A DNA stretch of 64,000 nt, taken from NCBI GenBank assembly GCA_964016985.1, contig OZ024827.1:57393507-57457506 (forward strand), given 5' to 3'. This DNA comes from Anodontia alba. Its lineage: Eukaryota > Mollusca > Bivalvia > Lucinida > Lucinidae. Made by a program: the position numbers and the translations under genes. Under the pieces are notes generated by a model that saw only the letters and a program-made list of their open reading frames with translations, searched no databases and had not been told where the DNA came from. The number at the start of each line of letters is the position of its first letter. Positions within the stretch are counted from its first letter, which is position 1. Of this stretch, positions 5,701 to 52,638 are shown one piece after another.

Positions 5701-5961
5701 ACCAGGCCGATAACGGACGGTAATCTCTTTGGATTTATCCACGGGCTCCTCCCAGGTGCGCCGAAATATGCGCAATTAGAGTTACGACACAGTATTCGAG
5801 AGCATCATATTAAAAATGATTTTGACTTTGTGGAGGGCAATATATTTAATTTTTGGGGCAGGTTCGCTGAATACGCCGGTGAAAGCACCGAGTTGAGTCT
5901 TTTTCCTTACAACTCGGTTTTTTTAGATGGATCAACAGTATCTTTATATTATAATTCATAA
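5701..5961 (+). pseudogene. Possible distal (head) domain of the Polinton fibre-like protein
   Basis: An open frame entering from the repeat element and ending with TAA at about 5959-5961. Visible text: ITDGNLFGFIHGLLPGAPK, LRHSIREHHIKNDF, FPYNSVFLDGSTVSLYYN. It is not a family I can name. The composition (Gly, aromatic and short hydrophobic alternation) suggests a beta-rich globular domain. Since the shaft gene stops at the other side of the insertion, on the same strand, I infer this is its C-terminal head. It could instead be the end of a separate gene whose start was lost. Confidence 0.4.
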
Positions 5962-24552: not shown

Positions 24553-24561
24553 GAAAAGCCC
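24553..24561. repeat. 9-bp target-site duplication, left copy
   Basis: GAAAAGCCC immediately before ACGAGCGTAAAG; identical to the right copy at 45563-45571. Confidence 0.75.
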
Positions 24562-24599
24562 ACGAGCGTAAAGTTAGCATCTGGTTCACGGTTCATTAT

Positions 24600-27500
24600 T
24601 CATGGTTCAGGATTCAGCGTCTGGTTCAGTATTCAGGGTATTATTCAAAATACGACCTGCAGCGTCTGGTTCAGGATTCAGCATATTATTCAAAAATGTC
24701 AAGGATATTATTCAGCGTCTGGTTCACGATTCAGGATATTATTCAAAATACGACCTGCAGCGTCTGGTTCAGGATTCAGCGTATTATTAAAAAATGTCCA
24801 GGGTTTTATTCAACGTCTGGTTCAGTATTCAGGGTATTATTCAAAATACGACCTGCAGCGTCTGGTTCAGGATTCAGCGTATTATTAAAAAATGTCCAGG
24901 GTATTATTCAGCGTCTGGTTCAGTATTCAGAGTATTATTCAAACTACGACATGCAGCGTCTGATTCAGGATTCAGCGTATTATTAAAAAAATGTCCAGTG
25001 TATTATTCAGCGTCTGGTTTAGTATTTAGGGTATTATTCCAAATACGACCTGCAGCTACTGGTTTAGGATTCAGCGTATTATTAAAAAATGTCCAGGGTA
25101 TTATTCAACGTCTGGTTCAGTATTCAGGGTATTATTCAAAGCGTCTGGTTCAGGATTCAGCGTATTATTAAAAAATGTCCAGGATATTATTCAGCGTCTG
25201 GTTCAGTATTCAGGGTATTATTCAAAATACGACCTGCAGTGTCTGATTCAGGATTCAGCGTATTATTAAAAAATGTCCAGGGTATTATTCAGCGTCTGGT
25301 TCAGTATTCAGGGAATTATTCCAAATACGACCTATAGCTTCTGGTTCAGGATTCAGCGTATTATTAAAAAATGTCCAGGGTATTATTCAGCGTCTGGTTC
25401 AGTATTCAGCGTATTATTCAAAATACGACGTGCAGCGTCTGGTTCAGGATTCAGCGTATTATTAAAAAATGTCCAGGGTATTATTCAGCGTCTGATTCAG
25501 TATTCAGGGTATTATTCAAAATACGACCTGCAGCTTCTGGTTCAGGATTCAATGTATTATTAAAAAATGTCCAGGGTATTATTCAGCGTTTGGTTCAGTA
25601 TTCAGGGTATTATTCAAAATACGACATGCAGCGTCTGGTTCAGGATTCAGCGTATTATTAAAAAATGTCCAGGGTATTATTCAGCGTCTGATTCAGTATT
25701 CAGGGTATTATTCAAAATACGACTGCCGCCTCTGGTTAATGATTCAGTGTATTATTAAAAAATGTCCCTGGTATTATACAGCGTCTGGTTTAGTATTCAG
25801 GGTATTATTCAAAATACGACCTGCAGCTTCTGATTCAGGATTCAGCGTATTACTCAAAATGCACAGGGTATTATTAAGCGTCTGGTTCAGTATTCAGGGT
25901 ATTATTCAAAATACGATGTGCAGCTTCTGGTTCAGGATTCAGCGTATTATTACAAAATGTCCAGGGTATTATTCAGCGTCTGGTTCAGTATTCAGGGTAT
26001 TATTCAAAATACGACCTGCAGCGTCTGGTTCAGGATTCAGCGTATTACTGAAAAACGGCCAGGGTATTATTCAGCGTCTGGTTCAGTATTCAGGGTATTA
26101 TTCAAAATATGACCTGCAGCGTCTGGTTCAAGATTCAGCGTATTATTAAAAAAATGTCAAGGGTATTATACAGCGTCTGGTTCAGTATTCAGGGTATTAT
26201 TCAAAATACGACCTGCAGCGTTTGGTTCAGGATTCAGCGTATTATTAAAAATTGTCCAGGGTATTATTCAGCGTCTTCTTCACGATTCAGGGTATTATCT
26301 AAAATACGACCTGCAGCGTCTGGTTCAGGATTCAGCGTATTATTAAAAAATGTCTAGGGTATTATTCAGCGTCTTCTTCACGATTCAGGGTATTATTCAA
26401 AATACGACCTGCAGCGTCTTGTTCAGGATTCAGCGTATTATTAAAAAATGTCCAGGGTAATAATCAGCGTCTGGTTCAGTATTCAGGATGTTAATCAAAA
26501 TACGACCTGTAGCGTCTGGTTCAGGATTCAGCGTATTATTCAAACTGTCCAGGGTATTATTCAGCCTCTGGGTCAGTATTCAGGGTATTATTCAAAATAC
26601 GACCTCAGTGTCTGGTTCAGGATTCAGCGTATTATTCAAAAATGTCCAGGGTATTATTCAGCGTCTGGTTCAGTATTCAGGGTATTATTCAAAATATGAC
26701 CTGCAGCGTCTGGTTCAAGATTCAGCGTATTATTAAAAAAATGTCCAGGGTATTATTCAGCGTCTGGTTCCGTATGCAGGGTATTATTCAAAATACGATC
26801 GGCCGCGTCTGGTTCAGGATGCAGTTTATTATTAAAAAATGTCAAGGGTATTATACAGCGTCAGGTTCAGTATTCAGGGTATTATTCAAAATACGACCTG
26901 CAGCGTCTGGTTCAGGATTCAGCGTATTATTAAAAAATGTCCAGGGTATTATTCAGCGTCTGGTTCAGTATTCAGGGTATTATTCAAAATACGACCTGCA
27001 GCGTCTGGTTCAGGATTCAGCGTATTATTAAAAAATGTCCAGGGTATTATTCAGCGTCTGGTTCAGTATTCAGGGTATTATTCAAAATACGACTTGCAGC
27101 GTCTGTTTCAGGATTCAGCGTATTATTCGAAAATGTCCAGGGTATTATTCAGCGTCTGGTTCAGTATTCAGGGTATTATTTAAAATACGACCAGCAGCGT
27201 CTTGTTCAGGATTCAGCGTATTATTAGAAAATGTCTAAGGTATTATTCAGCGTCTGGTTGAGTATTCAGGGTATTATTCAAAATATGACCTGCAGCGTCT
27301 GGTTCAGGGTTCAGCGTATTATTCAAAATGTCCAGGGTATTCTTCAGCCTCTGGGTCTGTATTAAGGGTATTATTCAAAATACGACCTCAGTGTCTGGTT
27401 CAGGATTCAGCGTATTATTAAAAAATGTCCAGGGTATTATTCAGCGTCTGGTTCAGTATTCAGGGTATTATTCAAAATACGACCTGCAGCGTCTGGTTCA

Positions 27501-30411
27501 AGATTCAGCGTATTATTTAAAAAATATCCAGGGTATTTTTCAGCGTCTGGTTCAGTATTCAGGGAATTATTCCAAATACGACCTGCAGCTTCTGGTTTAG
27601 GATTCAGCGTATTATTTAAAAATGTCCAGCGTATTATTCAACGTCTGGTTCAGTATTCAGGGTATTATTCAAAATACGACCTGCAGCGTCTGGTTCAGAA
27701 TCCAGCGTATTATTCTAAAATGTCCAAGGTATTATTCAGCGTCTGCTTCAGTATTCAGAGTATTATTCAAAATACGACCTGCAGCCTCTGATTCAGGATT
27801 CGGCGTATTATTAAAAAAATGTCCAGTGTATTATTCAGCGTCTGGTTCAGTTTTCAGGGTATTATTCCAAATACGACCTGCAGCTTCTGGTTTAGGATTC
27901 AGCGTATTATTAAAAAATGTCCACCGTATTATTCAACGTCTGGTTCAGTATTCAGGGTATTATTCAAGCGTCTGGTTCAGGATTCAGCGTATTATTAAAA
28001 AATGTCCAGGGTATTATTCAGCGTCTGGTTCAGTATACAGGGTATTATTCAAAATACGACATGCAGCGTCTGATTTAGGATTCAGCGTATTATTAAAAAA
28101 ATGTCCAGGGTATTATTCAGCGTCTTGTTCAGTATTCATGCTATAATTCCAAATACGACCTGCAGCTTCTGGTTCAGGATTCAGCGTATTATTAAAAAAT
28201 GTCCAGGGTATTATTCAGCGTCTGGTTCAGTATTCAGCGTATTATTCAAAATACGACGTGCAGCGTCTGGTTCAGGATTCAGCGTATTATTCAAAAATGT
28301 CCAGGGTATTATTCAGCGTCTGATTCAGTATTCAGGGTATTATTCAAAATACGACCTGCTGCTTCTGGTTCAGGATTCAGCGTATTATTAAAAAATGTCC
28401 GGGGTATTATTCAGCGTCCGGTTCAGTATTCAGGGTATTATTCAAAATACGACCTGCAGCGTCTGGTTCAGGATTCAGCGTATTATTAAAAAATGTCCAG
28501 GGTATTATTCAGCGTCTGGTTCAGTATTCAGGGTATTATTTAAAATACGACCAGCCGCGTCTGGTTCAGGATTCAGCGTATTATTAAAAAATGTCTAAGG
28601 TATTATTCAGCGTCTGGTTGAGTATTCAGGGTATTATTTCAAATACGACCTGCAGCGTCTGGTTCAGGGTTCAGCGTATTATTCAAAATGTCCAGGGTAT
28701 TATTCAGCATCTGGGTCAGTATTCAGGGTATTATTAAAAATACGACCTCAGTGTCTGGTTCAGGATTCAGCGTATCATTAATAAATGTCCAGGGTATTAT
28801 TCAGCGTCTGGTTGAGTATTCAGGGTATTATTCAAAATACGACCTGCAGCGTCTGGTTCAGGATTCAGCGTATTATTAAAAAATGTCCTGGGTATTATTC
28901 AACCTCTGGTTCAGTATTCAGGGTATTATTCAAAATACGACCGGTCGCGTCTGGTTCAGGATTCAGCGTATTAATAAAAAATGTCAAGGGTTTTATACAG
29001 CGTCTGGTTCAGTATTCAGGGTATTATTCAAACTACGACCTGCAGCGTCTGGTTCAGGATTCAGCGTATTATTTAAAAATGTCCATGGTATTATTCAGCG
29101 TCTACGTCACGATTCAGGGTATTATTCAAAATACGACCTGCAGCGTCTGGTTCAGGAATCAGCATGTCATTAAAAAATGTCCAGGGTCTTATTCAGCGTC
29201 TACTTCACGATTCAGGATATTATTCAAAATACGACCTGCAGCGTCTTGTTCAGGATTCAGCGTATTATTAAAAAATGTCCAGGGTATTATTCAGCGTCTG
29301 GTTCAGTATTCAGGGTATTAATAAAAATACGACCTGCAGCGTCTGGTCCAGGATTCAGCGTATTATTAAAAAATGTCTAAGGTATTATTCAGCGTCTGGT
29401 TCAGTATTCAGGGTTTTATTCAAAAAACGACCTCCAGCGGCTGGTTCAGCATTCAGCGTTTTATTCAAAAAATGTCCAGGGTATTATTCAGCGTCTGGTT
29501 CAGTATTCAGGGTATTATTCAAAATACGACCAGCAGCGTCAGGTTCAGGATTCAGCGTATTATTAAAAAATGTCCAAGGTATTATTCAGCGTCTGGTTGC
29601 GTATTCAGGGTATTATTCAAAATACGACCTGCAGCGTCTGGTTCAGGGTTCAGCGTATTATTCAAAATGTCCAGGGTATTATTGAGCCTCTGGGTCAGTA
29701 TTCAGGGTATTATTCAAAATACGATCTCAGTGTCTGGTTCAGGATTCAGCGTATTATTCAAAAATGTCCAGGGTATTATTCAGCGTCTGGTTCAGTATTC
29801 AGGGTATTATTCAAAATATGACCTGCAGCGTCTGGTTCAGTATTCAGCGTATTATTAAAAAATGTCCAGGTATTATTCAGCGTCTTGTCCAGTATTAAGG
29901 GTATTATTCAAAATACAATCTGCAGCGTCTGGTTCAGAATCCAGCGTATTATTCAAAAATGCCCAGGGTATTATTCAGCGTCAGGTTTCCGATTCAAGGT
30001 ATTATTCAAAATACGATCTGCAGCATCTGGTGCAGGATTCAGCGTATTATTAAAAATGTCCAGGGTATTATGCAACGTCTGGTGCAGTATTCAGGGTATT
30101 ATTCAAAATGCGACCTGCTGCGTCTGGTTCAGGATTCAGCGTATTATTAAAAATATCCAGGATATTATTCAGCGTATGATTCAGTATTCAGTGTATTATT
30201 AGAAAATGTGCAGGGTATTATTCAGAGTCTTTTTCAGGATTCAGCGTATTTTTTAAAAATTTTCAGGGTATTTTTCAGCGTATGGTTCAGGATTCAGCTT
30301 ATTATTAAAAAATGTCCCGGGTATTATTCAGAGTCTTTTGCACAATTCAGCGTATTAGTCAAAGATGTCCAGGTATTATACAGCGTCTGGTTCAGGATTC
30401 AGCGTATTGTT
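24600..30411 (+). repeat. 98-bp satellite array, left terminal array
   Basis: About 59 copies of a 98-bp unit made of two related halves, each starting CAGCGTCTGGTTCAG; one half has AAAAAATGTCCAGG, the other CAAAATACGACCTG. Some units are shortened, for example near 25135, where the ATACGACCTG part is missing. Because 98 is not a multiple of 3 and only one frame position has a stop, chance ORFs of 96 codons recur every 98 bp; they are not genes. Confidence 0.97.
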
Positions 30412-32732
30412 GAACTAGACAAAGTGCCCAGTGGGGCACGTATACCCCCGACCAGTGCTACCGCCACTTTTTAAAGAGCACAAAGTATGTAGCTTTGACT
30501 CTGGAGATGGCAGTTGTATGCTATATGTTATAACAGTGAAAAATTCAATCACTCATAATATGAAGCCCTTGACCTCAAGGGTCAGGCACAGGTGCAGGGA
30601 TTGAGCTGAATAAAACTTTAGCCCTATAACTATCACCATATACCAGTGAAATCAATCAGTCTTTATAATATAAGCAAAAATGACATTTGTATGAAAAGTC
30701 TGTGACCTTGACTTAAAAGCCATGCCCCAGCTTGGGAATGATGCCGAGAAAACCTTTAGACCTATATATACAATCATGCTTAATATTAATGAAACCAACA
30801 AAAGGGTCTTCATAATGTAGCTATATAAATTTTAATGAAAATTTTAAGGTGACCTGCCTACTCAATGCCCTCTACATATCAGTAAAGTATCACAAAAATA
30901 TCTTAAAGAATTTTTAGAGTTATTGCCCGCACAAGATTTAAATAACCAAGGGAGAAAACTGCAGAATGGAGTCAGTTAGAGTGTCATTATTGAATGTGAT
31001 ATGCCTACTCAATGTCCTCTACATACTGGTGAAGTATCATGAAAATATCTTAACGTGTTTTAAAGTTATGGTTCGCACAAAATGTTAACAATTCTGGAGA
31101 CAAGGGGAAATAACTCATGGACCAAGTCAGTTACAGTTGTCTTTCTTGTACCTGACACCCCTACCAAATGTCCTTTACAACCTGACAGTTTCCTGAAAAT
31201 AGCTCAAAGGGTAGTTAGGAGTTATGGGGTGCACAATAATGTGTTTATGGACAGACAGATGGATGGATGGACGGATGGATTCCATGCTGATAGCTATATC
31301 TCCTAAACCTCTCAGCAGGAGGCCATACCTCGGGATGGTGATGATGCTGAGTAAAACTCTAGACCTATATCTACCAACCTGTATAATATAAATGAAATTC
31401 CTCAAAGGGTCTTGATGGTATAGCTATATATATAAACACAAAAATTTTGACTTATTTATGAAAATTCTAAGCGTGACCTTGACCCCAAGGTTATCCTCCG
31501 GGATAGGGGTCGTGCTGATAAAAACTTAAGCCCTATATCTACCATCAGGCCAAATATGAATGAAATCCATCCAAGGGTCTTCATAATATAAGGTCTTATA
31601 AACTTTAACGTAAAAACTTTGACCCTAAGACAAAAATAAAGTATGAACGAATAATGCTTCAACGGACGGACGGACAGAGGAACAGATTCCTTGCTGATAG
31701 CTATATCCGCTCAACCTTTCAGTTAGGGGATAATGAAATTTAACAAAAAGTCTTGATGATATGGCTATATAAACTTTAACGCAAAATTTTTTACTTTTAT
31801 ATGAAAATTCTAAGTTCGTGGCCTTGACCTCTGTCACACCCGGGGTGATGATCATGCTGAGTAAGACTGTAGGCCGATATCTGTCAAATATAAATGAAAT
31901 TCCTCAAGGGTCTTGATGATATAGCTACATAAACATAAACACAAAAAACTTTGACTTTTTATAAAAATTCTAAGTCTGTGACCTTGACCCCAAGGTCACC
32001 CCGGGGTGGGGATGGTGCTGATAAAAACTTTCGACCTATATCTACCATCATGCTTAATATAAATGAAATCCAGCAAAGGGTCTTCAAAATATGAGGTCTT
32101 ATAAACTTTAACGTAAAAACTTTGACCCTAAGACAAAAATAAAGTATGAACGAATAATGCTTCAACGGATGGACGGACAGACGAACAGATTCCTTGCTGA
32201 TAGCTATATCCGCTCAACCTTTCAGTTAGGGGATAATGAAATTTAAAAACAGGTCTTGATGATATGGCTATATAAACTTAAACGCAAAATGTTTTACATT
32301 TATATGAAAATTCTAAGTTCGTGACCTTGACCACGGTCACACCCGGGTTGGGGATCATGCTTAGTAAGACTCTAGGCCGATATTTACCAACAAGTCAAAT
32401 ATAAATAAAAATCCTCAAGGGTCTTGATAATATAGCTATATAAACTTAAACACAAAAAAACTTTGACTTTTTTATGAAAATTCTGAGTCCGTGACCTTGA
32501 CCCCAAGGTCACCCCGGGATGGGGATGGTGCTGATAAAAACTTAAATGAAATCCATCATGGTGCTGATAAAAACATAAATGAAATCCATCAAAGGGTCTT
32601 CAAAATATGAGGTCTTATAAACTTTAATGCAAACACTTTGACCCTGAGACGGAAAGACGAACGAACGAAAGAACGAACGAACGGAAAAGCGAAAACTATA
32701 TACCCCCACATACTTCGTATGTCGGAAGTATA
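30412..32732. mobile_element. Hairpin-ended element inserted in the satellite array
   Basis: Interrupts a satellite unit (GCGTATTGTTGAAC to the left, TAAAAATGTCCACGG to the right). Near its left end is a stem GTGCCC-AGTG-GGGCAC at 30424-30439. At its right end is TATACCCCCACATAC-TTC-GTATG..., a hairpin at about 32697-32731. The interior has diverged units of about 503 bp (near 31456, 31959 and 32463) with TGACCTTGACCCCAAGGTCA-like words and ACGAACGAACG runs. Terminal hairpins without TIRs suggest a Helitron/Helentron-like non-autonomous element (inference). No gene. Confidence 0.55.
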
Positions 32733-33362
32733 AAAATGTCCACGGTATTATTCAGCGTCTGGATCAGTATTCAGGGTAATATTCAAAATACGACCTGCTG
32801 CGTCTGCTTCAGTATTCAGCATATTATTAAAAAATGTCCAGGGTATTATTCAGCGTGTGGTTCAGGGTATTATTCAAAATACGAAGTGCAGCGTTTGGTT
32901 CAGGATTCAGCGTATTATTAAAAATGTCCAGGATTTTATTCAGTGTCTGGTTCGGTATTCAGGGTATTATTCAAAATACGTCATGCAGCGTCTGGTTCAG
33001 GATTCAGCGTGTTATTAAAAAATGTCCGGGGTATTATTCAGCGTCTGGTTCAGTATTCAGGGTATTATTCAAAATGCGACCTGCAGCGTCTGGTTCAGGA
33101 TTCAGCGTGTTATTAAAAAATGCCCAGGGTATTATTCAGCGTCTGGTTCAATATTCAGGTATTATTCAAAATACGACCTGCAGCGTCTGGTTCAGGTTTC
33201 AACGCATTAAAAAATGTCCAAAGTATTATTCAGCGTCTGGTTCAGGATTCAGCGTATTATTAAAAATTGTCCATGGTATTATTCAGAGTCTGGTTCAGTA
33301 TTCAGCATATTATTAAAAAATGCCCAGGGTATTATTCAGCGACTGGTTCAGGATTCAGCATA
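32733..33362 (+). repeat. 98-bp satellite, continuation after the insertion
   Basis: About six units of the same satellite, same orientation, more diverged than the left block. Confidence 0.95.
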
Positions 33363-34320
33363 TTCCCGGTCTCAACATCGCGCAAGAAGCTGTGAAGCCC
33401 CGAAAATGCCTCAGCCTGGCCTGTCCGGGCTCAATGTCGCTCAAGCAGCAGGGAAGTCCCGGGAGTCCAAAATCACCCAGAAGTAACCACACCAAAAAAC
33501 GACTACGTTTGCATTTATGCCAAAATAAAACAAGTCCATATTTGCTATGAATTAACCTCACATACCAAAATTGATTTAAAAAAATCCAGTGCGCCCGGTC
33601 TAAACATCGCTCAAGTAGCGTGTCGCCACCAGGCCTGGACGGGCTCAATAGCGCTAAAGCAGCGGGGAAGTCCAAAATCGCCCCGAAATTGGGTTGAAGA
33701 CCCAACGTACCCGGTCTCAACATCGCTCAAGAAACGGGGAAGCCCCGGGAGTGTCCCCCGCCTGGCATGTCAGGCTCAATGGCGCTGAAGCAGCTGGGAA
33801 GTCCCGGGAGTCCAAAACCGCCCAGAAGTAACCACACCAAAAACGACAAAGTTCGCATTTTATTCCAAAATAAACCAAATCCAAACTTGCTCTGAATTAA
33901 CCACACACAATTTAAAAAAAAAAAAAAATACCCAGTGCGCCTATCTCAACATCGCTCAAGTAGCGGGGAAGCCCCGAGCGTGTCGCCACCAGGCCTGTAC
34001 GGGCTCAATAGCGCTAAAGTAGCGGGGAAGTCCCCGGAGTCCAAAATCGCCCCGAATTAAGCACACAACCGAAAAACGACTAAGTTCGCATTTTCTTCAA
34101 AACTAAAGTGTCCGAAATTGGGTTGAAAAGACCCAGTGTGCCCGCTCTCAACAACGCTTAAGAAGCGGGGAAGCCTCAGGTGTGCCTACCATCCCCCCTC
34201 CCCCCCCGTCCCCCCCCGTCCCCCCCCCGTCCCCCCCCCCCCCCCCCCACGGCTTGTTCGGTCTGAATATCGCTGAAGCAGCGGGGAAGCCCCGGGAGTA
34301 ATTCATTTTTTTGAAAAACA
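33363..34320. repeat. GC-rich tandem repeat and poly-C tract
   Basis: Words CCGGTCTCAACATCGCTCAAG and GCGGGGAAG(C/T)CCCGGGAG recur at about 33365, 33599, 33709, 33945 and 34140, giving irregular units. A C-rich stretch with CCGTCCCCCC repeats lies at 34190-34250. No gene. Confidence 0.85.
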
Positions 34321-34394
34321 TGGGGGTCCCCATTACGCTTACTCTTAAGAGTGGTTTCGACCTCTGAATTGACGGATGTGTCTTAACTGCACGC

Positions 34395-36232
34395 GTAATA
34401 TTCAGGGTTAGGGTAACGGTGCTGTGTAATTGTCCAGTTAGTCTCATTATTACATATGAGTAGGTAAGGGATCTCTGAGTGTTAGAATTAGGTTTAGGGT
34501 TAAATATGGTTAGATTAGGTCAGGGTTAGGGAAAGAGTTTTGTGGCAGCAGCTAAGAGTTACGGTTAGGGTAAATCTCAATCGGGCAGTTGCGCCTAGCC
34601 TGGGGTGATGTTAGGTGTACGAGTTAGGGTTAGTAGTGTTAGGGGTTTGGGTAAGGGTTAGTAGGGGCTAGACAGGGTTAGGGTTAGGAGCTAGGGCTAG
34701 GGTTAGAGGCTGCGGCTGTGTTGCGTTTAGTTTAGGGGTTGCGGTTAGTTCTAATGTTTTGTAGCTAGGAGTAGGGTTAGGGTTAGTGATAGGTTAGGGT
34801 TAGGGGTTAGGGCTAGGGTTTGCAGGGGCTGGACAGGGTTAGTGTAGAGGCTGGGTCTAGGGTTAGAGTCTGCCGCTGAAGGTTGCGGTTAGTTTTGGGG
34901 TTGCGGTTAGTTTTGGGGTTGCGATTAATTGTAATGTTTTGTACCTAGGGTTAGGGCTAGTGATACGTTAGGGTTAGGGCTAGGCTAGAAGGGGCTTGAC
35001 AGGGCTAGTGCTAGGGGCTGGGGCTAGGGTTGGAGGCTGCCGCTAAATGTTGCGGTTAGTTTTGGGGTTGCGGTTAATTCTGATGCCTTGTAGCTAGGGT
35101 TGGTGTTAGGGTTAGGGTAAATAAACGTCAAAAAGATTGCCTTTGGAAACAAAAAACACTCTACAGATTAGAAAATAGGAGTTTCGGTTTTATTGAGTCT
35201 CTTTATAAGCAGTAATGAAGTTTGCAACACTGCTTACGCCCTCTAGCGTTTACGAGCAGAACTCCATTTTCAAATATGCCACAATGGTTCCAATAATCCC
35301 AAAGGAAATGAAATATAATCTGCACTATGGTAAAGTACGGGGAGACTCTAGGGTTAGGGTAGCCCCACCCCAGGGGCTATGCATGGTGAGTGTTTAGGAC
35401 TGAGGCTAGGGTGAGAATGTGTGTCTAAGACTTGCGGTTACTTTTTGGATTGCGGTTAATTCTAATGTTTCGTAGCTAGGGTTAGGGCTAGTGTAAGTGA
35501 TGGATTAGGATTAGGGTTAGGGTAAAGGTTAGGGTTTGAGGCTAGGGTAGTAAGGGTTTGACAGGGTTAGTGTTAGCGGCTGGGACTAGGGTTGGAGGCT
35601 GCCGCTAAAAGTTGCGGTTAGTTTTTGGGTTGCGGTTAATTCTGATGTCTTCTAGCTAGGGTTAGGTTAAGGGTTAGTGGAACTTTAGCGTTAGGGTAGC
35701 CCCAACACTGGGGCTAGGCAGGGAGAGTCTTTACGGCTGGGGCTAGGGTGAGAGGGTGTGTCTGAGACGCGGTTAGTTTTGGGATTGCGATTGATTGTAA
35801 TGTTTCGTACCTAGGGCTAGGGTTTAGGGTTAGTAATAGGTAGGTTATATTAGGGTTAGGGATTAGGGCTAGGGTAGTAGGGGCTTGACAGGGTTAATGT
35901 TAGGGGCTGGGGCTAAGGTTGGAGGCTGTAGCTAAAGGTTGTGGTAAGTTTTGGGGTTGCGGTTAATTTTGATCTCTTTCAACTAGGGTTAGGGTTAAGG
36001 TTAGGATAAACCTAGGGTTAGGGTAGCCCCAACCCAGAGGCAATGCAGGGTGAGTGTTTCGGCTGGGGCTAGCGTGAGATGGTGTGTCTAAGACTTGCGG
36101 TTAGTTTTGGGGTTGCCGTTACTTTTACTGTTTTGTACCTAGGGTTAGAGTTAGGGTTAGTGATAGGTTAGGGTTAGGGGTTAGGGCTAGGGTAGTAGGG
36201 GCTTGACAGGGTAAGTGTTAGGGGCTGGGACT
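34395..36232 (+). repeat. Telomere-like (TTAGGG-derived) complex repeat, left part
   Basis: Many GGTTAGGG words are mixed with a longer diverged unit, 'GGGGTTGCGGTTAATT(C)TAATG...TAGCTAGGGTTAGGG...GGGGCTTGACAGGGTTAGTG'. The TTGCGGTTAATT word appears at irregular 140-390 bp spacing (about 34915, 35057, 35449, 35630, 35778, 35954, 36109). All is in the same orientation (G-rich strand is +). No gene. Confidence 0.9.
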
Positions 36233-36702
36233 AGTCCCAAACAAAAATAATTCTTAGTAAATCATGAATGCACCATCAATGCAACATAAATACAACACAA
36301 AATAGTGATTTGTTAAAGTGTATGAGGTCTTAGGGCTAAACGTGATACTAATGCAACATAAATACATTACAATGTAGCATTACTGTATCATTTCACTTTA
36401 ACTTTTTGAAGGTGTTGCATTAATGTTGAATTTAACTTTGTTTTTGAATCAGTGCGTTATTTCAGATTCATTTAACTCAGAATTTTTTGTACAGTGTAGA
36501 ATTAATGTTTTATTGGTCTTAAACTTTTCTCACTGTGAGGCAAGACTGTTTCGTTGACTTACCAGCAAATTTGTAGGATTTTTCTAATGTTGGACTACTT
36601 GAAATTAAACTGAAACGTTTTTGTTTTAGTTTCTTATTAAAATCAGTCTTTATTTGCGAACTTAATTAATATTTAAAATCGACTAGACATAACAAATAAT
36701 GG

Positions 36703-36804
<102 letters not shown>

Positions 36805-38300
36805 CTTGGGGAAAAAGAAACGCAAGTTCAAAATTTTAAATACTGAAAGTTTGTTTGTGAACAAACTGATCTAGTTTTCTGTATTTGGTGACATTAGTGT
36901 ACTTCCCCGTGTATGGATCACACAAAATCACTGAAGCGTGAACACAGGCTGCACAATATCGTTGTTCCTAAATTTCGTTATATCCGTGCTGCACGGGTAG
37001 TGTAACACATTACCAAATCGAACTTTCGTTCCATTCGTATCGGTTGCACAAAACGTTTGTTGTTTGAGTTTGTTGAGAGAAATGGTACGCTTATCGCAAC
37101 TGGATAGGGTAGAGCTATTGCTCTAAGTTTGCAGGGTCGGTCGCAAGGTGACGTCGCGCAGCAATTTGGGGTGCACGAGTAGACGATATCGCGCTTAGTT
37201 CAGCGTCTTAGAGCTACCGGTAGGTGAACTGACCGTCCTAGGAGCGGACGTCCGCGCGTTACGACGCAACGTCAAGATAGACGTATACGTCTTGTACACC
37301 TTCGTAACAGGTTAAGGACGGCGACAGAGACCGCAAGAGGTTATCGGAACACATGGCCGTCGTGTGTGTCCAAGGACAGTCAGAAATCGCTTGCGAGAGT
37401 TCGATTTACGTCCACGCCGTCCTTACGTGGGCCCGAACCTTACGCCCAGGCGACGTCAACGCCGCATGCAATGGCTGCGTGCCCATGCACCAAATCGGTT
37501 TCGACTGGCTGACTGGCGGCGTGTAATGTTCAGCGATGAGTCGCGATTTTCGCTTCAGCGGTCAGATAGGCGACAACGAGTGTATCGACGTCTTGGTGAG
37601 CGATATTCTGACGCTTGCGTACGAGAAGTCGACAGATTTGGGGGAGGGGGGTCCGTAATGGTTTGGGGTGGGATTTCTCATGGGGTGAAAACGCCCCTAG
37701 TGGTTATTCAGGGTAATCTTACAGCCGTACGCTATCGGGATCAGGTGCTTATGCCTCACGTCCTCCCGATTGTCAATGCTCATAATCTCACGTTTCAGCA
37801 TGACAACGCGAGACCGCATGTTGCCAGGGTTTGTCGCGACTTCCTCAACCAGAATAATGTCCAAGTGCTCGATTTGCCCCCATACAGTCCAGATTTAAAC
37901 CCAATCGAGCACCTTTGGGATGCGTTGGACAGGAGGGTCAGGAAGCGCGTCAACGTACCGAACAACGTCGCACAGCTCCAGCTAGCTCTTATTCAAGAGT
38001 GGAATAATATCCCTCAAAGGACCATTGACAACTTAGTCGGGTCTATGGTTAGAAGAGTGAGAGCCGCGACAGCAGCCCGTGGTGGACACACGCGCTATTG
38101 ATACCCATTATTCAATAACGTTGGGTGTCTGTGTTTAACGCTATTTATTGCAAACGTCGTCTGCTATACGACACTAAACCAATAGCATTTAACAGAAAAT
38201 GAAATAAAGAATTAAAAAAATTAAACAATCAAATGAAATCCACAATTTTCTTTAAAAATACAACCCCAGAATTAATACTTGCGTTTCTTTTTTCCGCTAG
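36805..38300 (+). mobile_element. Tc1/mariner element inserted in a TA microsatellite
   Basis: 1496 bp. The left end is CTTGGGGAAAAAGAAACGCA and the inverse of the right end is CTAGCGGAAAAAAGAAACGC (then AAGT); both are flanked by TA (36803-36804 and 38301-38302) within TATATA sequence, as expected for TA target duplication. It encodes one broken transposase. Confidence 0.9.
37082..38101 (+). pseudogene. Tc1-type DD34E transposase, N-terminal half broken
   Basis: ATG 37082 starts MVRLSQLDRVELLL and stops. Helix-turn-helix text follows in another frame (GRSQGDVAQQFGVHE, stop, TISRLVQRLRATGR, stop, TDRPRSGRPR with the GRPR-like AT-hook). A further frame change near 37350 leads to an intact 245-codon C-terminal half to 38101: VMFSDESRF (first D), FQHDNARPHVAR (second D), PPYSPDLNPIEHLWD (E). 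There are 34 residues between second D and E, so this is a DD34E catalytic triad of the Tc1 family. The catalytic domain is complete; two stops and at least two indels inactivate the DNA-binding half. Confidence 0.92.
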
Positions 38301-38405
<105 letters not shown>

Positions 38406-39393
38406 AATCCAGTGAGTTTTTTTTTTATCTGAGTTTCAGAATTGTGTAATAAGTACTTGTTGCTTTGTGTATAAAATTCTAGAACTGGGCATCAACTTGA
38501 CCTGAAAAGGATTAAAATGGTTAGTTTCTTTCTCATTACTAGGTTTCCTGGCTTAAAAAGTATTCATACTTCAAGCTTATCCATTATAGAAAATCAAGAA
38601 CAGAAATCAAATGTGTTACAAGCATGCTTTGGCATTCACTTAATTTATTTCTTCCATGTTGCTGCATTTCAGTACATGTATATACTTATAATTGTGATTT
38701 CAACAGCATGGCTTTAATCTGTGTTGCATTAATGTTTTGTTAGAATCTGGTCACAAGTGATAACATATGTGATCCATTTCCTGAAAATTTAAATTTTAGT
38801 GTTGCATTACTGTATTATTAGCCTGCACATGCTCAGTGAACAAATGACTCACTTCCTGACCTTACAAATTTGGAGGGAAATAAATGAAAGCAATTGCAAG
38901 GAGTCATTGTTTATTTCTTTAAAATTTGTGATTTTTAGTTGTTCGAAGGATAATTTTTTTCTAATAACAGTTATATGTGTATGATATTTTAACATATTTG
39001 TCCTAGCCATATGACTTCACATGTGCCAAGATTTAATTGGAAAATTAATGTTATAAAGTTGTATACTATTCCCCACCCATCTTAAAAAAAACAATAGAGT
39101 CAAAACAGTTCCTTTCTAAATTACATCACTCATTTACAACTGATGTGCCCTGTTCAAGGGTTGTTTGGGACTAAAAGACACATCATGCTGTGTGAATTGA
39201 ATTAAGCTCCTTATGGATTTTATGTTTTATTTTCCATGTTGCATTACTGCTTTGTTACAGTGTTGCATTACTGCTGCATTTCTGATTTGTTAGCTCATTT
39301 GCATGTGAAATTTGTTGCAAATAAAACATTAATGAAACACATGTAGCATTACTGATTTGTTAAAGTGATGCATTCCCCTGATTGTTTTGTTTG

Positions 39394-40233
39394 GGGTGTT
39401 GGAGACTGTCGCTAAAGGTTGCGGTTAGTTTTGGGGTTGCGGGAAATGTGATGTCTTGTAGCTAGGGTTAGGGTTAGGGGTTAGGGCTGGGGTGAGTAGG
39501 GGCTGGACATTGGTAGTGTTAGAGGCTGGGGCTAGGGTTAGGTGCTTCTGTTGAGCCTTGTGGTTATTTCTGAGGTTGCGGTTAATTCCAGTGTTTTGTA
39601 GCTAGGGTTAGGGTTAGTCTGGGCACGGTGATGAGTTTGGGCTGGGGCCAGGGCGACTAAGCATTGCGGTTAGTTTAGGGGTTGCGGTTAATTCTAATGA
39701 TTTTTACCTAGGGTTAGGGCTAGTGATAGGTTAGGGTTAGGATTAGGGGTTAGGGCTGAGGTAAGTAGGGGCTGGACAGGGCTAGTGTTAGAGGCTGGGG
39801 CTAGGGTTAAGGTTAGGGTTAGGGTTAGAGGCGGTGGCTAAGAGTTGCGGTTAGTTTAGGGGTTGCGTGAATTATAATGATTTTCACCTAGGGTTAGGGT
39901 TAGCTTTAGGGGTTAGGGCTGGTGTGAGTAAGGCTGGACAGGGGTAGTGTTAGAGACTGGGGCTAGGGTTAGCGGCTTAGGCTGAACCTTGGGGTTAATT
40001 CTGGGGTTGCGGTTAATTGCAGTGTTTTGTTGCTAGGGTTAGGGTTTGGGCTCGGCAGGGTGAGGGTTTTGGGCTGGAGCCAGGGTTAGAGGCCGTGGCT
40101 AAGTATTGCGGTTAGTTTAGGGATTGCGGTTAATTCTAATGATTTTCAGCTAGGGTTAGGGTTAGTGATAGGTTAGGGTTAGGGGTGGGGTAAGTAGGGG
40201 CTGGACAGGGATTAGGGTTAGGGTTAGGGTTAG
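39394..40233 (+). repeat. Telomere-like complex repeat, right part
   Basis: Same units and orientation as 34395-36232, including a clean GGTTAGGGTTAGGGTTAGGG run near 40210. It continues the block interrupted at 36232. Confidence 0.9.
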
Positions 40234-43080
40234 GGCCTTTTTCTTGGCTGTTCGCAGTAAGGAATTATTCCCTATTGTGGATCTTGATGTCAGCGACCAG
40301 GTTCATTCAAGTTGATTGGATACATCTCCACGGGAGTCCACGTGAGCCCACTTTGGCGAGAAAGTAATTACCTCTCTTCTCACACAGGGCTACTCTAAAT
40401 GGAAGGAACATATTTTCTGATCAGAATAGCCCCCTTTTGAAGAGGGGTTTATAAACCAGGAAAGGATCTGTTCCGCTGGATTGGTCTTCCTTTGAAAAGG
40501 AGGAGAGTGTTGAGATGTATCTCTGTTTACCGTAACCTTTTCATCCCTGCAGATCAAAACAGATACTATGCAAACAGGGTAGATCCAGATGAGAAAATTA
40601 AAAGCATTTTTATTGCTGTTTAAGTGCAAAAAGGTATAAGGTTAAAATATCATTTTAACCTTTCTTTACCACTCTCTCTGGACTAATTTTAGCAGATGAT
40701 AAATTGAGGACATATTTCTGATTTTTCATAGAAACAAGATTTGGCATTTCATGCAAATTGTCTGGACACAATTTCCATGAAATGCCAAAGCTTATTTTCT
40801 GGTGAATATAAGAAAACTATTTTAAAACTTCATCTGAAAATTTTACTCAGCATGCTAAGCGTTGAAGTTACTCGACTGCAACTAATTTGGTAGACAGTGG
40901 CAGTTATTTATTGAAATTCATTCGAGTTCCAACTTCAGGACACTGACACAACCATGGAAACCAGGACAGAACAAGATCTATGAAATATGCAGCAGTGATA
41001 TTATCATAGATTATCTAATATTTGGACAGAAAAAAAACACACACAATTTGTTAACCCTTGAGGCACTATCGTTTTTACACTATTGTTCTTTATATTTCTT
41101 GATATTTCATGTAAATTGTCTGCTTAGTAGAGGATTTACATGTAGTATTGAGCCTTGTTTTCTCTGAAAAAAAAAAAAAAAAATTTCTTAGAATGTCATC
41201 TGCAGCCGTTGTGACAGGCTTTGCTAGTGTAAGGAAGTTACCAATATTGCCAAGGTAGGCAATTATTATAAATTGCCTATCTTCCGTTACAGTATTTGTA
41301 ACTTCCTGACATCAATAATTTTAAGTAAAGCTTGTGTCCTATACTTTTTTCAGTCTGAACTTATGTTATCTAGCCTTTACCACTCTACAGGCAAAATCAG
41401 CAGATGACAAATTGATGATATTTTTATTTTTTACATGAAAACAAAATTAAGAATAAATTAAGATGCCACACCCTTTTCAAATTTTCAGCCAATCAGATTA
41501 CTTCATCCAGATTGTTGATATAAATTCCGTCCGTCCGTCTGTTTTTACGTTTGCCTGTTATGTACACCACAATAGTTTGCGGTTTGTCAAAAGAAAGGTC
41601 TATAAACCATCAAAAGTTCTTGTTTTACTTTGATCCTTAATATTTCCATGGTTGGCAGACTCCTCTAGCTGTCAAACAAGAGCAATATAAGCGTAACTGA
41701 ACCAAATTTAGTGACACAGAGGCCCAAAAGTTTGTAACCGAAAATCAGGATTGGCAAGACCCGGCAAGCGAAGCACATCCCCCTCCGAGCACACATCAAT
41801 AATCATGAGAAAGTCCAACTGCAGACATCAGGTAAGAGACACCTACCGATCGATTAAAGAGCGTCCCCCACCGTGTCACCTCAGCCAGCATGGCCCACGC
41901 ACCACGGCAATCCCGGGCATCAGCAAGGAGAGTGTCCCAGGCAGCGAGACCTGCAACAGGTAAACTCAACCCAAAAAAAAGGCGAACAAATCCGCTAAGA
42001 TACCTGTCACTATGACAAATCAAGCTTTGTTTTAGAAGAATTTAGAATTTGTACTACTGCAAATGTTAAGGTATAATATAGTAATTTAATTCAGTACTTA
42101 CGTACTGACGTTAACACCGCAGTATCAACATCAGCACTTAGGAACTGATTCTGAGCAGATGATATCCTAGGGGACGACGGAAACATCCACCAGCAGAGAT
42201 ACCGACACAGTGGTTTGCAATATAAGCGCAGCTATACCAAGTTTAGTGACACTGAGTCTTTCTGTTATTAAAACGTCGTCAGTGTATCTAAACCTCAAAA
42301 GTGTGAAACCGAAACAGTTGATTGGCAAAACCCGGCAAGCGAAGCACATCTCCCCTCCGAGCACACATCAACCGACGTAGATCAAGAGACAGGGAGCAAA
42401 CAATTCGAGGAAATGAGGAACCTAGTCTACAATATGGTATCGTGAAAGGACGACTTGCATAAAACTATATTAACTGAATAATTATGTGATTACGTTTGCA
42501 GCTTAAAGTGAATGCTGAAACACTGACTGAATTTTGAACTTTATCCAAAACCGCGAACCGAATCTTGAACTGATTAATTCAGAATCCTGCCCCGTAGACT
42601 GAATCAAGAACTACACTAAATTTAGAATCTTGTAGTGTTTCTTTAATCATGGACTGAACTCTGATTTTGTTCAGTTTGAATCCTAATTTCATCCATGCAT
42701 CGTGAACTGAAACTTGAACTGGCATATATTGAAATCCGGAACTAAATTTTGAACCTTTGATTTAGTCCTGAGTCAATAAAAAATATCGGAAATCGTTACG
42801 TTTGATTTTTTTTTTCAAAGTTCATATATCGAGCACGGATTTTCAACACTATATCAAGCTACGCTTGTAAAAACATAAGCGTTGGCAAAAATAGCTTTTA
42901 CAGATGCACCAATTACGGATGCATTATCACTATAAATTTTTCAACAATACTTATCGCTGATGCCTACCTATAAATATATGAAGGAAATTCAAGAATTAAT
43001 GGCAATTGCCAAATAAAACAGAACATGTAGCATAAACATCAGTTTTAACTGCGTACGCTGAAACCTTAAACATGTTAACA
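40234..43080. other. Interior of the giant element: non-coding, with one direct duplication
   Basis: No gene recognised. The text 'GGCAA(G/A)ACCCGGCAAGCGAAGCACATC..CCCTCCGAGCACACATCAA' occurs at about 41753-41800 and again at about 42323-42371, each preceded by CCAA(A/G)TTTAGTGACAC. Between 42480 and 42780 the words GAATC(C/T)TGAACTG and CTGAATC recur irregularly and resemble decayed versions of the adjacent satellite. Confidence 0.5.
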
Positions 43081-45562
43081 TACTGAATACTGAACCAGAC
43101 GCTGAATAATACCCTAGCCATTTTTAATAATCCAGACGCTGAATAATACCCTGGAAATTTTTTAATAATACACTGAGTCCTGAACCAGGCGCTGAATAAT
43201 ACGCTGGTCGTATTTTGAATAATTCCCTGAATAATACGCAGAATACTGAACTAGACGCTGAATAATACCCTGGACATTTTTTAATCCGGGACCAGACGCC
43301 GATTAATACGCTGGTCGTATTTTGAATAATACCCCGAAAACTGAACTGGACGCTGAATAATACCTTGGACATTTTGTAATAATACGCTGAATCGTGAACC
43401 AGACGCTGCAGGTCGCATTTTGAATAATACCCTGAATCGTGAACCAGACGCTGAATAATACCCTGGACATTTTTTAATAATACGCTGAATCCTGAACCAG
43501 ACGTTGCAGGTCGTATTTTGATTAATACCCTGAATCGTGAACCAGAAGCTGAATAATACCCTGGACATTTTTTAATAATACGCTGAATCCTGAACCAGAC
43601 GCTGCAGGTCGTATTTTGAATAATACTCTGAATACTGAACCAGACGCTGAATAATACCCTGGACATTTTTTAATAATACGATGAATCCTGAACCAGACGC
43701 TGCAGGTCGTATTTTAAATAATACCCTGAATACTGAACCAGACGCTGAATAATACCCCGGACATTTTGAATAATACGCTGAATCCTGAACCAGATGCTGC
43801 AGGTCGTATTTTGAATATCCTGAATACTGAACCAGACGCTCAATAATACCCTGGACATTTTTTAATAATACGCTGATTCCTGAACCAGACGCTGCAAGTC
43901 GTATTTTGAATAATACCCTGAATCGTGAACCAGACGCTGAATAATACCCTGGACATTTTTTAATAATATGCTGAATCCTGAACCAGACGCTGCAGGTTGT
44001 ATTTTGAATAATACCCTGAATACTGAACCAGACGCTGACTAATACCCTGGACATATTTGAATAATATGCTGAATCCTGGACCAGACGCTGCAGGTCGTAT
44101 TTTGAATAATACCATGAATACTGAACCAGACGCTGACTATTACCCTGGACATTTTTTAATAATACGCTGAATCCTGAACCAGATGCTGCAGGTCATATTT
44201 TGAATAATACCCTGAATACTGAACTAGACGCTGAATAATACCCTGGACATTTTTGAATAATACGCTGAATCTTGAACCAGACTCAGCAGGTCGTATTTTG
44301 AATAATACCCTGAATACTGAACCAGACGCTGAATAATACCATAGACATTTTTTAATAATACGCTGAATCCTGAACCAGACTCTGCAAGTCGTATTTTGAA
44401 TAATACCCTGACTAATGAACCATTCGCTGAATAATACCTTCGACATTTTTAATAAAAATTCGCTGATTCCTGAACCAGACGCTGCAGGTCGTATTTTGAA
44501 TAATACCCTGAATCGTGAACCAGAAGCTGAATAATACCCTGAACATTTTTTAATAATACGCTGAATCCTGAACCAGACGCTGCAGGTTGTATTTTGAATA
44601 ATTCCCTGAATCGTGAACCAGACGCTGAATAATACCCTGGACATTTTTTTAATAATACGCAGAATCCTGAACCAGACGCTGCAGGTCGTATTTTGAATAA
44701 TACCCTGAATACTTAACCATTCGTTGTATAATACCCTGGACATTTTTTAATAATACGCTGAATCCTGAACCAGATGCTGCACGTCCTATTTTGAATAATA
44801 CCCCGAATACTGAACTAGACGCTGAATAATACCCTGGACATTTTTTATTAATACGTTGAATCCTGAAACAGACACTGCAGGTCGTATTTTGAATAATACC
44901 CTGAATCGTGAACCAGACGCTGAATAATATACTGGACATTTTTTAATAATACGCTGAATCCTGAACCAGACGCTGCAGGTCGTATTTTGAATAATACCCT
45001 GAATACTGAACCAGACGCTGAATAATACCCTGGACATTTTTTAATAATACGCTGAATTCTGAACCAGACGCTGCAGGTCGTATATTGAATAATACCCTGA
45101 ATACTGAACCAGACGCTGAATAATACCCTGGACATTTTTTAATAATATCCTGAATCCTGAACCAGACGCTGCTGGTCGTATTTTGAATAATACCCTGAAT
45201 ACTGAACCGGACGCTGAATAATACCCTGGACATTTTTAATAGTACGCTGAATCCTGAACCAGACGCTGCAGGCTGTATTCTGAATAATACCCTGAATACT
45301 GAACCATAAGCTGAATAATACCCTGGACATTTTTTAATAATGCGCTGAATCCTGAACCAGACGCTGCAGGTCGTATTTTGTATAATACCCTGAATCGTGA
45401 ACCAGACGCTGAATAATACCCTGGACACTTTTGAATAATACGCTGAATTCAGAACCAGACGCTGCAGGTCGTATTCTGAATAATACCTTGAATACTGAAC
45501 CAGACGCTGAATCCTGAACCGTGAATAATGAACTGTGAACCAGATACTAACTTTACGCTCGT
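43081..45562 (-). repeat. 98-bp satellite array, right terminal array, inverted
   Basis: About 25 copies in the opposite orientation to 24600-33362, with variants such as GAATCGTGAACC. It ends with the same lead-in as the left array. Confidence 0.97.
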
Positions 45563-45571
45563 GAAAAGCCC
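45563..45571. repeat. 9-bp target-site duplication, right copy
   Basis: GAAAAGCCC directly after CGCTCGT. Confidence 0.75.
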
Positions 45572-47551: not shown

Positions 47552-48040
47552 TATATGGCGACACTGGTAGAGTGATTGGCTTTTTTACGAAGTTAAGCAA
47601 CGTACATCTCGGTTAGTACCTGGATGGGTGACCGCGGTGCTGTAAAAGTGCTTTAAACCCCCCGGTGGTATACTCTACTGACCGTTTTAAGGCGGTGGTC
47701 CCGGTGTTGGTCTTACTCTTTGTTGCTTTGTGGTTTATTCTACGAGGCGATTTGTTGTATGTCTTACCTTGTGTTATTTTTGTCTTGTGGATTCAGTCCC
47801 TTTAGCATTGCGATTACCTCGCTTGGGGAAGAGAGAGCTAATCTTAGTGCTTTTCGTACGTTTGTTCGATTTGTGCTTGTTTGGATTTGTCGGTTTCCTC
47901 TTCCTCTTGGTGTCTGGGAAGGGCTGCGGTTTGTGATTGTGGCACTCCCTGGACTTTTCTCTTACCCTTTTTTTTTGTAGAAGATCCGGTTTCATGTTAC
48001 AATAGTACTTGCAGCAGTGAATTATGCAAAGAATAAAAGA
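47552..48040 (+). mobile_element. 5S-derived SINE, copy B, interrupted by a family R retroelement tail
   Basis: The head TATGGCGACACTGGTAGAGTGATTGGC and 5S-like region at 47589-47640 stop at GGTGC. A family R tail occupies 47643-47977, after which the SINE body resumes as GTAGAAGATCCGGTTTCATG and ends GAATTATGCAAAGAATAAAAG. Comparison with copy A locates the insertion just before the body's GTAGAAGA. Confidence 0.7.
47643..47977 (+). mobile_element. Family R retroelement tail, strongly 5'-truncated
   Basis: Starts GTAAAAGTGCTTTAAACCCCC and ends CTGGACTTTTCTCTTACCC followed by T9. The same 3' end as at 7706. Confidence 0.75.
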
Positions 48041-50634: not shown

Positions 50635-51032
50635 AGTGAGAAAAGTCCAGGGAGTGTCACAATCTACAATAAACGTCACAAGCCGCAGCCCTTCCCAGAC
50701 TCCAAGAGGAAGAGGAAACAGACAAAACCAATCAAGCGCAAATCAAACAAACGTACAAAAAGCGCTGAGATTAGCTCGCTCTTTCCTTAGCGAGGTAATC
50801 GCAATGCTCAAAGAACTCAAAAACACAAGAAAAAAATGGCACAAGGCAAGACTCAAAATAAATCGCCTCGTAGAATAAACCACAAAGCAGCAAAGAGTAA
50901 CACTAACACCGGGATCACCGACTTAGAACGGTCAGTAGAAAAAAACACCGTGGGGTTTAAAACATTTTTACAGTCGGCGGACTTCACTCAGGATCCCGAT
51001 GCTACTCTAAATACAGAAATACATAAAAATTC
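50635..51032 (-). mobile_element. Family R retroelement tail, antisense, inserted in the LINE
   Basis: Begins GTGAGAAAAGTCCAGGGAGTG after an A9 run and ends near ATACATAAAAATTCG, where homology to 13860-13880 stops. Confidence 0.7.
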
Positions 51033-52386
51033 GTTTCAGTCTGTATTTCTGTCAGATCACCTCTTGATTTTTACAAATTGCGCTATTTTAAATGGCACTC
51101 ATTCTTGATAAATTTACTGCCTGTTTACTTTAAAAGCAAATTTCCAGTAATGACTGAAATAGAGATCTCTGTTAGTGGAGCTGCTCAACTCTTATCCAAT
51201 TTGAATTTTGCAAAGGCGGCTGGTTCAATGTTATTTGGTCTTTAGCCTTTAACGAGCTCAGTCAGGTCATAGCACCTGTAGTTACTGCTTTTTTCAGATA
51301 CAGGTATGATCCCTTCAGACTAGATGAGAGCCCAAGATTGTCCTCTTTTTAAAAAGGTAGCAAACAGGATTACGCAAACTACTATCCGATTTCTCTTACT
51401 TGTATTTTGTGCAAGACTGTGGAGCTAATTATTGCTCTAAAGAACATCAGTAAGAATAATATATGACCTTCAGTATGGCTTTCGTGATCGGTGGTCTAGT
51501 GAAACACAGCTTCTGCAACTAATCGTAGACCTTGCACGCAACATGACAGAAGGTAAGCAAACAAACCTCTTATTACCGGAATTTAGCCAGGTCTTTGATA
51601 AAGTCAACCATCTGAAACTCTTATGCAAGTTGCAAAACAATGGGTGCAAGGCTGAACTAAAGCATTTCTAGTAGGCAGAAGCCAGTCAGTTGTCCTTGGC
51701 GGGGAATGCTCTCTGATGAACTGTCTGTTCTTACAGGAATCTCTCAGAGATCAGTTCTTTCTTGCGGCATGTAAACGACCTCGTTCGATTATCTGCATAT
51801 GACGCTGCAGTATATTTGACAGTGCAAAGTCCAGATGACACAGAAAAAAAAAAACTTCGAATGATTTGAATATGCTGAAAGAATGGGAGGTAAAATGGAA
51901 TATAGAGTTTCATTACGAAAACACGCCTTTTCAAATATATTGAAAATTTTACCACCAAAATATGAAAATTTTCAGAAGAAAAATTCTGATATTTTTCATA
52001 TTTCTGCTCAAAACATAGATTGTGGGTATTCGTTAGAACCGCCTTGAGCAGAAATAAGAAGAATAATGTATACCCCTGTAAACCCCAGTTTTACCATATA
52101 AAGGTGGGGTTTAAGGGGGTCAAAATTATATAGGCATGTTTTCGTGATGAATCCATCTAAGTGCTAAGTCTTGCACATAACTCGATCTCGTAAACCTATC
52201 AGGAATAATTATACCATGCACGGGTAGACCCTTGACTCTGTTGAGAATGTTTGGTATCTAAATGTCGACTTATCCTCGGACCTTAATGGTAGTTACCATG
52301 TCACTAGAATTACTTCAAATGCACAGAAACGTCTCGGCTTCTTCAGGAGGAATATAAAAACTAATTATTTTAGCATCTTACTTTTT

Positions 52387-52638
52387 GTAGCTTTGTGGTT
52401 TATTCTACGAGGCGATTTGTTTTAATTCTTACCTGGTGTTATTTTGTTCTTGTGTTTTTCAGTCCTTTGAGCATTGCGATTACCTCGCTTGGGGGAGAGA
52501 GAACTAATCTTAGTGCTTTTCGCACGTTTGTTCGATTTGTGCTTGTTTGGTTTTGTCAGTTTTCTCTTCCTCTTGGTGTCTGGGAAGGGCTGCGGTTTGT
52601 GATTGTGGCACTCCCTGGACTTTTCTTTAACCTTTTTC
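52387..52638 (+). mobile_element. Family R retroelement tail, inserted in the LINE
   Basis: Shortest copy. It starts GTAGCTTTGTGGTTTATTCT and ends CTGGACTTTTCTTTAACC. It splits the LINE between RNIKTNYFS and the VRPQLEYAS block. Confidence 0.72.

Follow-up and report, generated by a model that had tools for sequence, protein, structure and literature searches.

Why two arrays of the same satellite should face each other across a block of telomere-like repeats is the question raised by a stretch of the Anodontia alba genome (contig OZ024827.1, positions 57,393,507 to 57,457,506), called the window below, by which we mean the whole 64,000 bp analysed. The initial annotation, made from the letters of the window, took the arrays and everything between them for a single 21-kb foldback-type element with satellite inverted termini. 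We searched the whole genome (1.86 Gb in 317 contigs, labelled C1, C2 and so on, in which the window is C7:57393507-57457506) and, in agreement with that proposal, find many copies with common ends that are paired inward. Window positions 24562-45562 are very probably one copy of a multi-copy, non-autonomous, non-coding foldback DNA transposon. The copies share both their ends and their interiors, face inward in pairs, are flanked by 9-bp duplications and include miniatures, and for a copy other than that of the window there is a gap-free empty site.

The terminal 16-mer ACGAGCGTAAAGTTAG is exact at both edges of the element, at 24562-24577 on the forward strand and at 45547-45562 on the reverse strand, so the outer edges are inverted copies of each other, as had been annotated. 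With up to three mismatches allowed, 100 shuffles gave a mean of 0.26 matches, and two of them reached two matches. Abutting both ends on the outside, in direct orientation, is the 9-mer GAAAAGCCC. The parts of the window copy are as follows.

24553-24561, forward: left 9-bp target-site duplication GAAAAGCCC, matching the right flank.
24562-24577, forward: left terminal 16 bp ACGAGCGTAAAGTTAG, an exact match that recurs in the genome.
24578-24614, forward: lead-in, probably a diverged piece of monomer, from an alignment of a typed end consensus to the monomer.
24612-30408, forward: left satellite array of 98-bp monomers (Tandem Repeats Finder), 58 full monomers counted.
32731-33364, forward: second array piece, oriented like the first and separated from it by about 2.3 kb of other repeats (Tandem Repeats Finder gives 32732-33358).
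33360-34400, forward: preblock, which precedes the telomere-like repeats; best matches are 82-89% to other copies and 72% to the right end of C8.
34400-36236, forward: first part of the telomere-like TAGGGT block (Tandem Repeats Finder and sequence comparison).
36236-39396, unstranded: later insertion splitting the TAGGGT block, with ends CCCAAACAAAA and TTTTGTTTGGG read directly.
37364-38101, forward: Tc1/mariner-type transposase open reading frame (ORF) nested in the insertion (Pfam DDE_3, E 1.5e-17; HTH_Tnp_Tc3_2, E 1.7e-07).
39396-40240, forward: second part of the telomere-like TAGGGT block (sequence comparison).
40241-43060, forward: non-coding core, adjoining one array and present in both subfamilies (comparison of copies).
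43083-45512, reverse: right satellite array, inverted (Tandem Repeats Finder gives 43228-45512).
45547-45562, reverse: right terminal 16 bp, an exact match.
45563-45571, forward: right 9-bp target-site duplication GAAAAGCCC, matching the left flank.

The Tc1/mariner-type frame is a nested passenger and not the foldback element's own enzyme; within the insertion with CCCAAACAAAA ends it sits between AC/AT and TA microsatellites.

Genome-wide, the 16-mer has 82 exact matches (42 forward, 40 reverse), whereas its reversed control has none, and a 27-base version of the end, searched with up to three mismatches, has 279 matches, again with none for its control. An end variant with ACGAGCGTTAAG is found in 20 exact copies. 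The boundary at ACGAGCG is therefore common to further copies, which the initial annotation had proposed looking for. Coordinates are known for the first places among the 279 matches, and 119 ends were listed for pairing, most ends being unlisted; when neighbours no more than 62 kb apart were taken as couples, 29 of 34 couples among the listed ends faced inward, three outward and two in the same direction. The inward spans range from 146 bp to about 58 kb with a median of 17.4 kb, and 19 of the 29 fall within 10.7-21 kb (where the right end comes from the 27-mer list, the span is 11 bp too small). At the small end, the miniature copies of 146, 1,510 and 1,918 bp that were read hold barely more than the ends and inverted monomers, and for a fourth, of 295 bp, only the end coordinates are known. 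At the large end, a 40.8-kb copy on C3 has an exact 9-bp duplication and, judged by eye, contains what seem to be nested elements; the remaining copies longer than 26.7 kb are known by end coordinates alone. Two long open frames were seen in the 40.8-kb copy (L019, 7260-9130, and L018, 6102-9620, both numbered inward from the element end); by eye, the first resembles an integrase from a large nested DNA element and the second the gag of a retrotransposon.

A single 9-bp match such as that flanking the window copy could arise by chance, and it is the other copies that settle the duplication as real. Across 16 pairs of ends, the flanking 9-mers are identical in seven, agree at 8 or more of the 9 positions in nine and at 7 or more in 11, whereas none of the 182 unmatched left-right combinations (from 14 pairs) reaches 7 of 9. 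The exact pairs are those of the window, C2, C3:65.6, C6, C7:111 and C17, and one that lies within a TA microsatellite and is uninformative for that reason. The flanks of the C15 and C1 copies look like 9-bp duplications with a small indel. At lengths of 7, 8, 10 and 11 bp, no exact match was seen outside the TA microsatellite in 15 pairs. The 9-mers have a weak base preference: in 43 flanks, which include both sides of some insertions and are thus not independent, the two outermost positions hold G or C in 61% and 58% of cases, and the bases between them are mostly A or T.

Empty sites were sought by comparing the joined flanks of 15 copies with the sequences fetched for the analysis. The joined flanks of the C10 copy match five element-free copies of the dispersed repeat that was its target, all of them in the window:

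7384-7615, 13571-13793, 47660-47890, 50722-50953 and 52376-52556: dispersed repeat, empty sites for the C10 copy, by joined-flank match.

The best of these is 94% alike over 232 bp and gap-free through the junction. The empty repeat copies read GGTTTATTC and the C10 flanks read GGTTCATTC and AGTTTATTC; therefore, this copy was inserted with a 9-bp duplication, and one base has changed since in each flank. For two other copies the matches are to tandem-repeat targets alone: the C8:82.9 copy lies in a 145-bp satellite that is also present in the window, with a junction-spanning match of 72-82%, and the joined flanks of C8:38.05 have a 75% junction-spanning match to their own repetitive flank. 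The prediction of an unoccupied site is thus borne out by a clean paralogous site for the C10 copy but not for the window copy, for which none was found in the fetched sequences; if the window copy was inserted as we suggest, its unoccupied site would read ACAGTGAAAAGCCCTAG.

The arms themselves are made of the 98-bp monomer, whose copies show 90% identity whether compared inside the left arm, inside the right arm or across the two. Nineteen end-bearing loci were fetched (18 with 9.2-9.7 kb of interior and one whole 1.9-kb copy), and an array of up to 5.6 kb stands at the end in 17 of them, so that long inverted termini of tandem repeats, as expected of a foldback element, recur at many loci together with short flanking duplications. 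When a typed consensus of the ends was compared with the monomer, the alignment score of the inner 37 bases of the lead-in was reached by 2 of 2000 single-base shuffles, whereas that of the outer 16 bases was reached by 629 of 2000, so that the outer bases show no such likeness to the monomer. The inner part of the lead-in resembles the monomer, and therefore the array probably grew from a subterminal part of the element; on this sequence likeness, tandem amplification of that part is the most likely origin of the variable-length arrays. Growth from a subterminal part was likewise proposed for Tetris (PMC4079207). We also considered recent inverted copying of one arm. Best monomer matches are 91-98%, within and between elements alike, and the monomers of one array resemble each other no more closely than they do those of the opposite arm; this idea was dropped because the best runs of six monomers reach only 91-96%. 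Separately, the window holds a second inverted satellite pair, at 4046-5701 and 8426-10088, with a 145-bp unit containing AAGATGGCGGCCAT; its members are 84% alike and about 2.7 kb apart, and their shared non-satellite stretch is on the inner, not the outer, side.

Between the arms, a non-coding core some 2.8 kb long adjoins one array in two subfamilies. Subfamily A comprises the window copy and L009, L011, L016, L017, L019, L023, L025, L026, L027 and L051; in most members, as far as the fetched pieces reach, a telomere-like block lies beyond the core, and several carry the preblock beyond that. Subfamily B is represented by two complete copies, on C2 and C3, in which no TTAGGG block was seen; these share about 9 kb with no ORF longer than 117 amino acids. 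Kimura two-parameter (K2P) distances between cores are 2.4-7.4% within A, 2.6-3.3% within B and 8.0-13.6% between them, and the core tree has short inner branches except for the one setting B apart. A genome search with the core, in which 40 of 11,483 candidates were scored, returned the window and 39 others at 91-93%. Ten of these 40 loci are situated inward of a listed end and none outward of one; at one of the other 30, C17:36.5 Mb, the flanks again show block, core and array following one another in this order.

The telomere-like block of the window is degenerate, with TTAGGG-type words in units of about 156-167 bp by one Tandem Repeats Finder reading and a longest perfect TTAGGG run of 24 bp. 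A 500-bp piece spanning the junction of preblock and TAGGGT block was searched for, with 40 of 84 candidates scored. Apart from the copies at a chromosome end or on unplaced contigs, the junction recurs at 32 further loci, with an identity of 74-89% in the best row. Twenty-one of these are found no more than 35 kb inward from a listed end, in stretches that make up about 0.2% of the genome; two of the 21 are also outside another end. Therefore, the telomere-like block travels with the element, and treating it as one unit with the opposed satellites, as the initial annotation did, was justified.

The origin of this cargo turns on contig C8. The last 2 kb of C8 hold the preblock and then the TAGGGT block, in the order seen in the element. 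The 500-bp junction is identical or about one base off on C8 and on unplaced C267, C149 and C24 (on the last at two places 13.7 kb apart), and partial on C221. As to the contigs themselves, C24 is an unplaced contig of 15,000 bp with two near-identical junctions, and C267, at 7,500 bp, is likewise of round length. One reading, which we offer tentatively and rate at somewhat below even, is that a chromosome end, consisting of subtelomere and degenerate telomere repeats, was captured and then spread as transposon cargo into the chromosome arms; as part of that same proposal and under the same doubt, many of the interstitial telomere-like blocks in this genome would be cargo of one satellite-framed mobile element. 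The other, to which we give close to an even chance, is that the C8 block is itself an old, incompletely assembled element copy or derives from one, the cargo not being a captured chromosome end.

Several observations fit an old copy on C8. In 20 sampled chromosome ends of 2 kb each, only the right end of C8 matches the preblock, and three ends have N at either edge as printed. The final 4 kb of C14 consist almost wholly of TTAGGG. The sequence breaks off at the C8 end, and the identical unplaced contigs may duplicate one locus. In a tree of five pieces of about 290 bp, moreover, the placement of C8 has a support of just 0.144 and is left open. On the other side, the G-rich strand runs outward on C8, as it must at a telomere, and neither the last 2 kb nor the roughly 500 readable bases before a run of N has a satellite match to the window arrays. 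The C8 copy of the 290-bp piece also shares 86-89% identity with four element copies, and these share 90-95% among themselves. At another chromosome end, the right end of C3 (L058), we observed terminal repeats of a 22-bp unit, TTAGGGTTAGGGGACTAAGTCG, rather than plain TTAGGG.

The enzyme that moves the element is probably of the Mutator/Rehavkus type and supplied in trans. Taken together, long inverted termini, a cut of 9 bp and target sites with no strong motif suggest a Mutator-group enzyme that works by cut and paste; target duplications of 8-11 bp are the range of the Mutator superfamily (PMC6446971), and those of 9 bp here fall within it. Rehavkus is the closest named type because that group has 9-bp duplications (PMC6446971) and because Rehavkus-1_TC of Tribolium castaneum, in a group allied to Mutator, carries the satellite TCsat23 in its inverted termini (PMC10218199), the combination that we see here. 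We infer that a transposase from another element, probably of this kind, would recognise the 16-bp tip and perhaps also the monomers, and that the unit would be cut out, rather than copied, and pasted in with a 9-bp staggered cut.

An unlikely alternative is that the element belongs to the P superfamily and is moved by a P-type enzyme, as a foldback element comparable to Drosophila Galileo, whose long inverted termini contain tandem repeats. P-type elements have target duplications of 7-8 bp, and the duplications here are 9 bp long, lengths of 7 and 8 having given no exact match outside the TA microsatellite. In its favour, the termini of Galileo do hold tandem repeats with extra transposase sites (PMC4079207), and by analogy the 98-bp monomers may be transposase binding sites. 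Spread of the satellite arrays by Helitron-like elements has a precedent in the oyster Crassostrea gigas, in which Helentrons carry satellite-like arrays (PMC7492417). We regard it as very improbable for this family, in which a 9-bp duplication and long inverted termini are both present and the C10 copy has a gap-free empty site with such a duplication. Rolling-circle elements are not known to leave a 9-bp duplication or to have long inverted termini. Finally, there might be no mobile unit at all, the opposed satellite blocks having arisen through duplication, inversion or recombination between satellites. Array lengths do differ between copies, and satellites recombine readily, but constant non-satellite tips, inward pairing, 9-bp duplications and the empty site make this account scarcely credible.

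A number of observations weigh against a mobile foldback element. Five of the 34 neighbouring couples of listed ends do not face inward, and of the 40 core loci that were scored only ten are inward of a listed end, most ends being unlisted. Two of the 19 fetched ends depart from the satellite arm, L015 being without an array and L022 having only about 30 bp. Five of the 16 pairs share fewer than 7 of 9 flanking bases, and the flanks of C3:67.8, C9:69.8 and C12 do not match; 12 of the 15 joined flanks, that of the window copy included, have no empty site in the fetched sequences. No transposase of the element's own was seen in the ORF lists of the copies examined: among stop-to-stop frames of at least 110 amino acids in three complete copies there are the nested Tc1/mariner frame, a 161-amino-acid satellite frame and others of at most 130 amino acids, and the long frames of other copies seem, by eye, to be nested elements or satellite read as protein. 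The transposase search was made with the MULE profile PF10551 alone, the P, Merlin, hAT and Rehavkus profiles not being searched; with 150 of 324 candidates scored, the nearest scored match to any of 112 listed ends was 114 kb away, and the longer copy with a MULE transposase that the initial annotation had envisaged was not found. Movement, moreover, is deduced here from comparison of sequences.

Drosophila FB and sea urchin TU elements are smaller than this element and have shorter tandem units. They had been named as its nearest analogues, and the foldback architecture is indeed common to all; satellite-like termini, however, are already described for Tetris (PMC4079207) and Rehavkus-1_TC (PMC10218199). 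The latter shares with our element the satellite inside the inverted termini, and its group the 9-bp duplications; its TCsat23 has 164-bp monomers in arrays mostly of five and eight (PMC10218199), and it measures 9.5 kb (PMC10218199), whereas most paired spans here are 10.7-21 kb with up to 58 monomers per arm. The Rehavkus group as a whole has a PHD-finger transposase, terminal repeats of 26-400 bp and arthropod and annelid hosts (PMC6446971); no such transposase was found for this element, a PHD profile not having been searched. Tetris, a foldback element of Drosophila virilis with satellite-like inverted termini, has termini of up to 1,735 bp, an outer domain of up to 866 bp and three structurally complete copies (PMC4079207), in contrast with an arm that reaches 5.8 kb, a tip of 16 bp and a telomere-like block in many copies here. 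Tm1, a Mutator/Foldback element of root-knot nematodes, has composite tandem-repeat termini, non-coding and miniature members and duplications of 8-10 bp, mostly 9, with no clear target consensus (PMC3169594), and our element resembles it in its tandem-repeat termini, mostly 9-bp duplications and non-coding and miniature copies. Its repeats are of about 14 bp, however, its described members are of about 1.1 and 2.6 kb, and there is a member with a Phantom-like transposase (PMC3169594); here, the monomers are 98 bp, most spans are 10.7-21 kb, and no transposase-bearing member was found. Satellite in inverted termini is therefore already known; the distinctive points are the long arms, the large size of the non-coding unit and the telomere-like cargo. 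In the excerpts of the literature examined, including work on interstitial telomeric repeats that covers bivalves, we found no precedent for a DNA transposon with subtelomeric cargo, which does not imply that none is in print.

Interstitial telomere-like DNA is usually ascribed to repair or to chromosome fusion, and the element would provide a concrete route by which such DNA may be scattered inside chromosomes. Our results also suggest the movement of non-coding units of 10.7-21 kb, above the upper size of 7 kb that a review gives for the first reported Pack-MULEs (PMC6431247). Above all, they tie satellite DNA to transposition in a way that can be tested, in a family whose members extend in size from 146 bp to about 20 kb and whose monomer can be traced from the element tip into long arrays.

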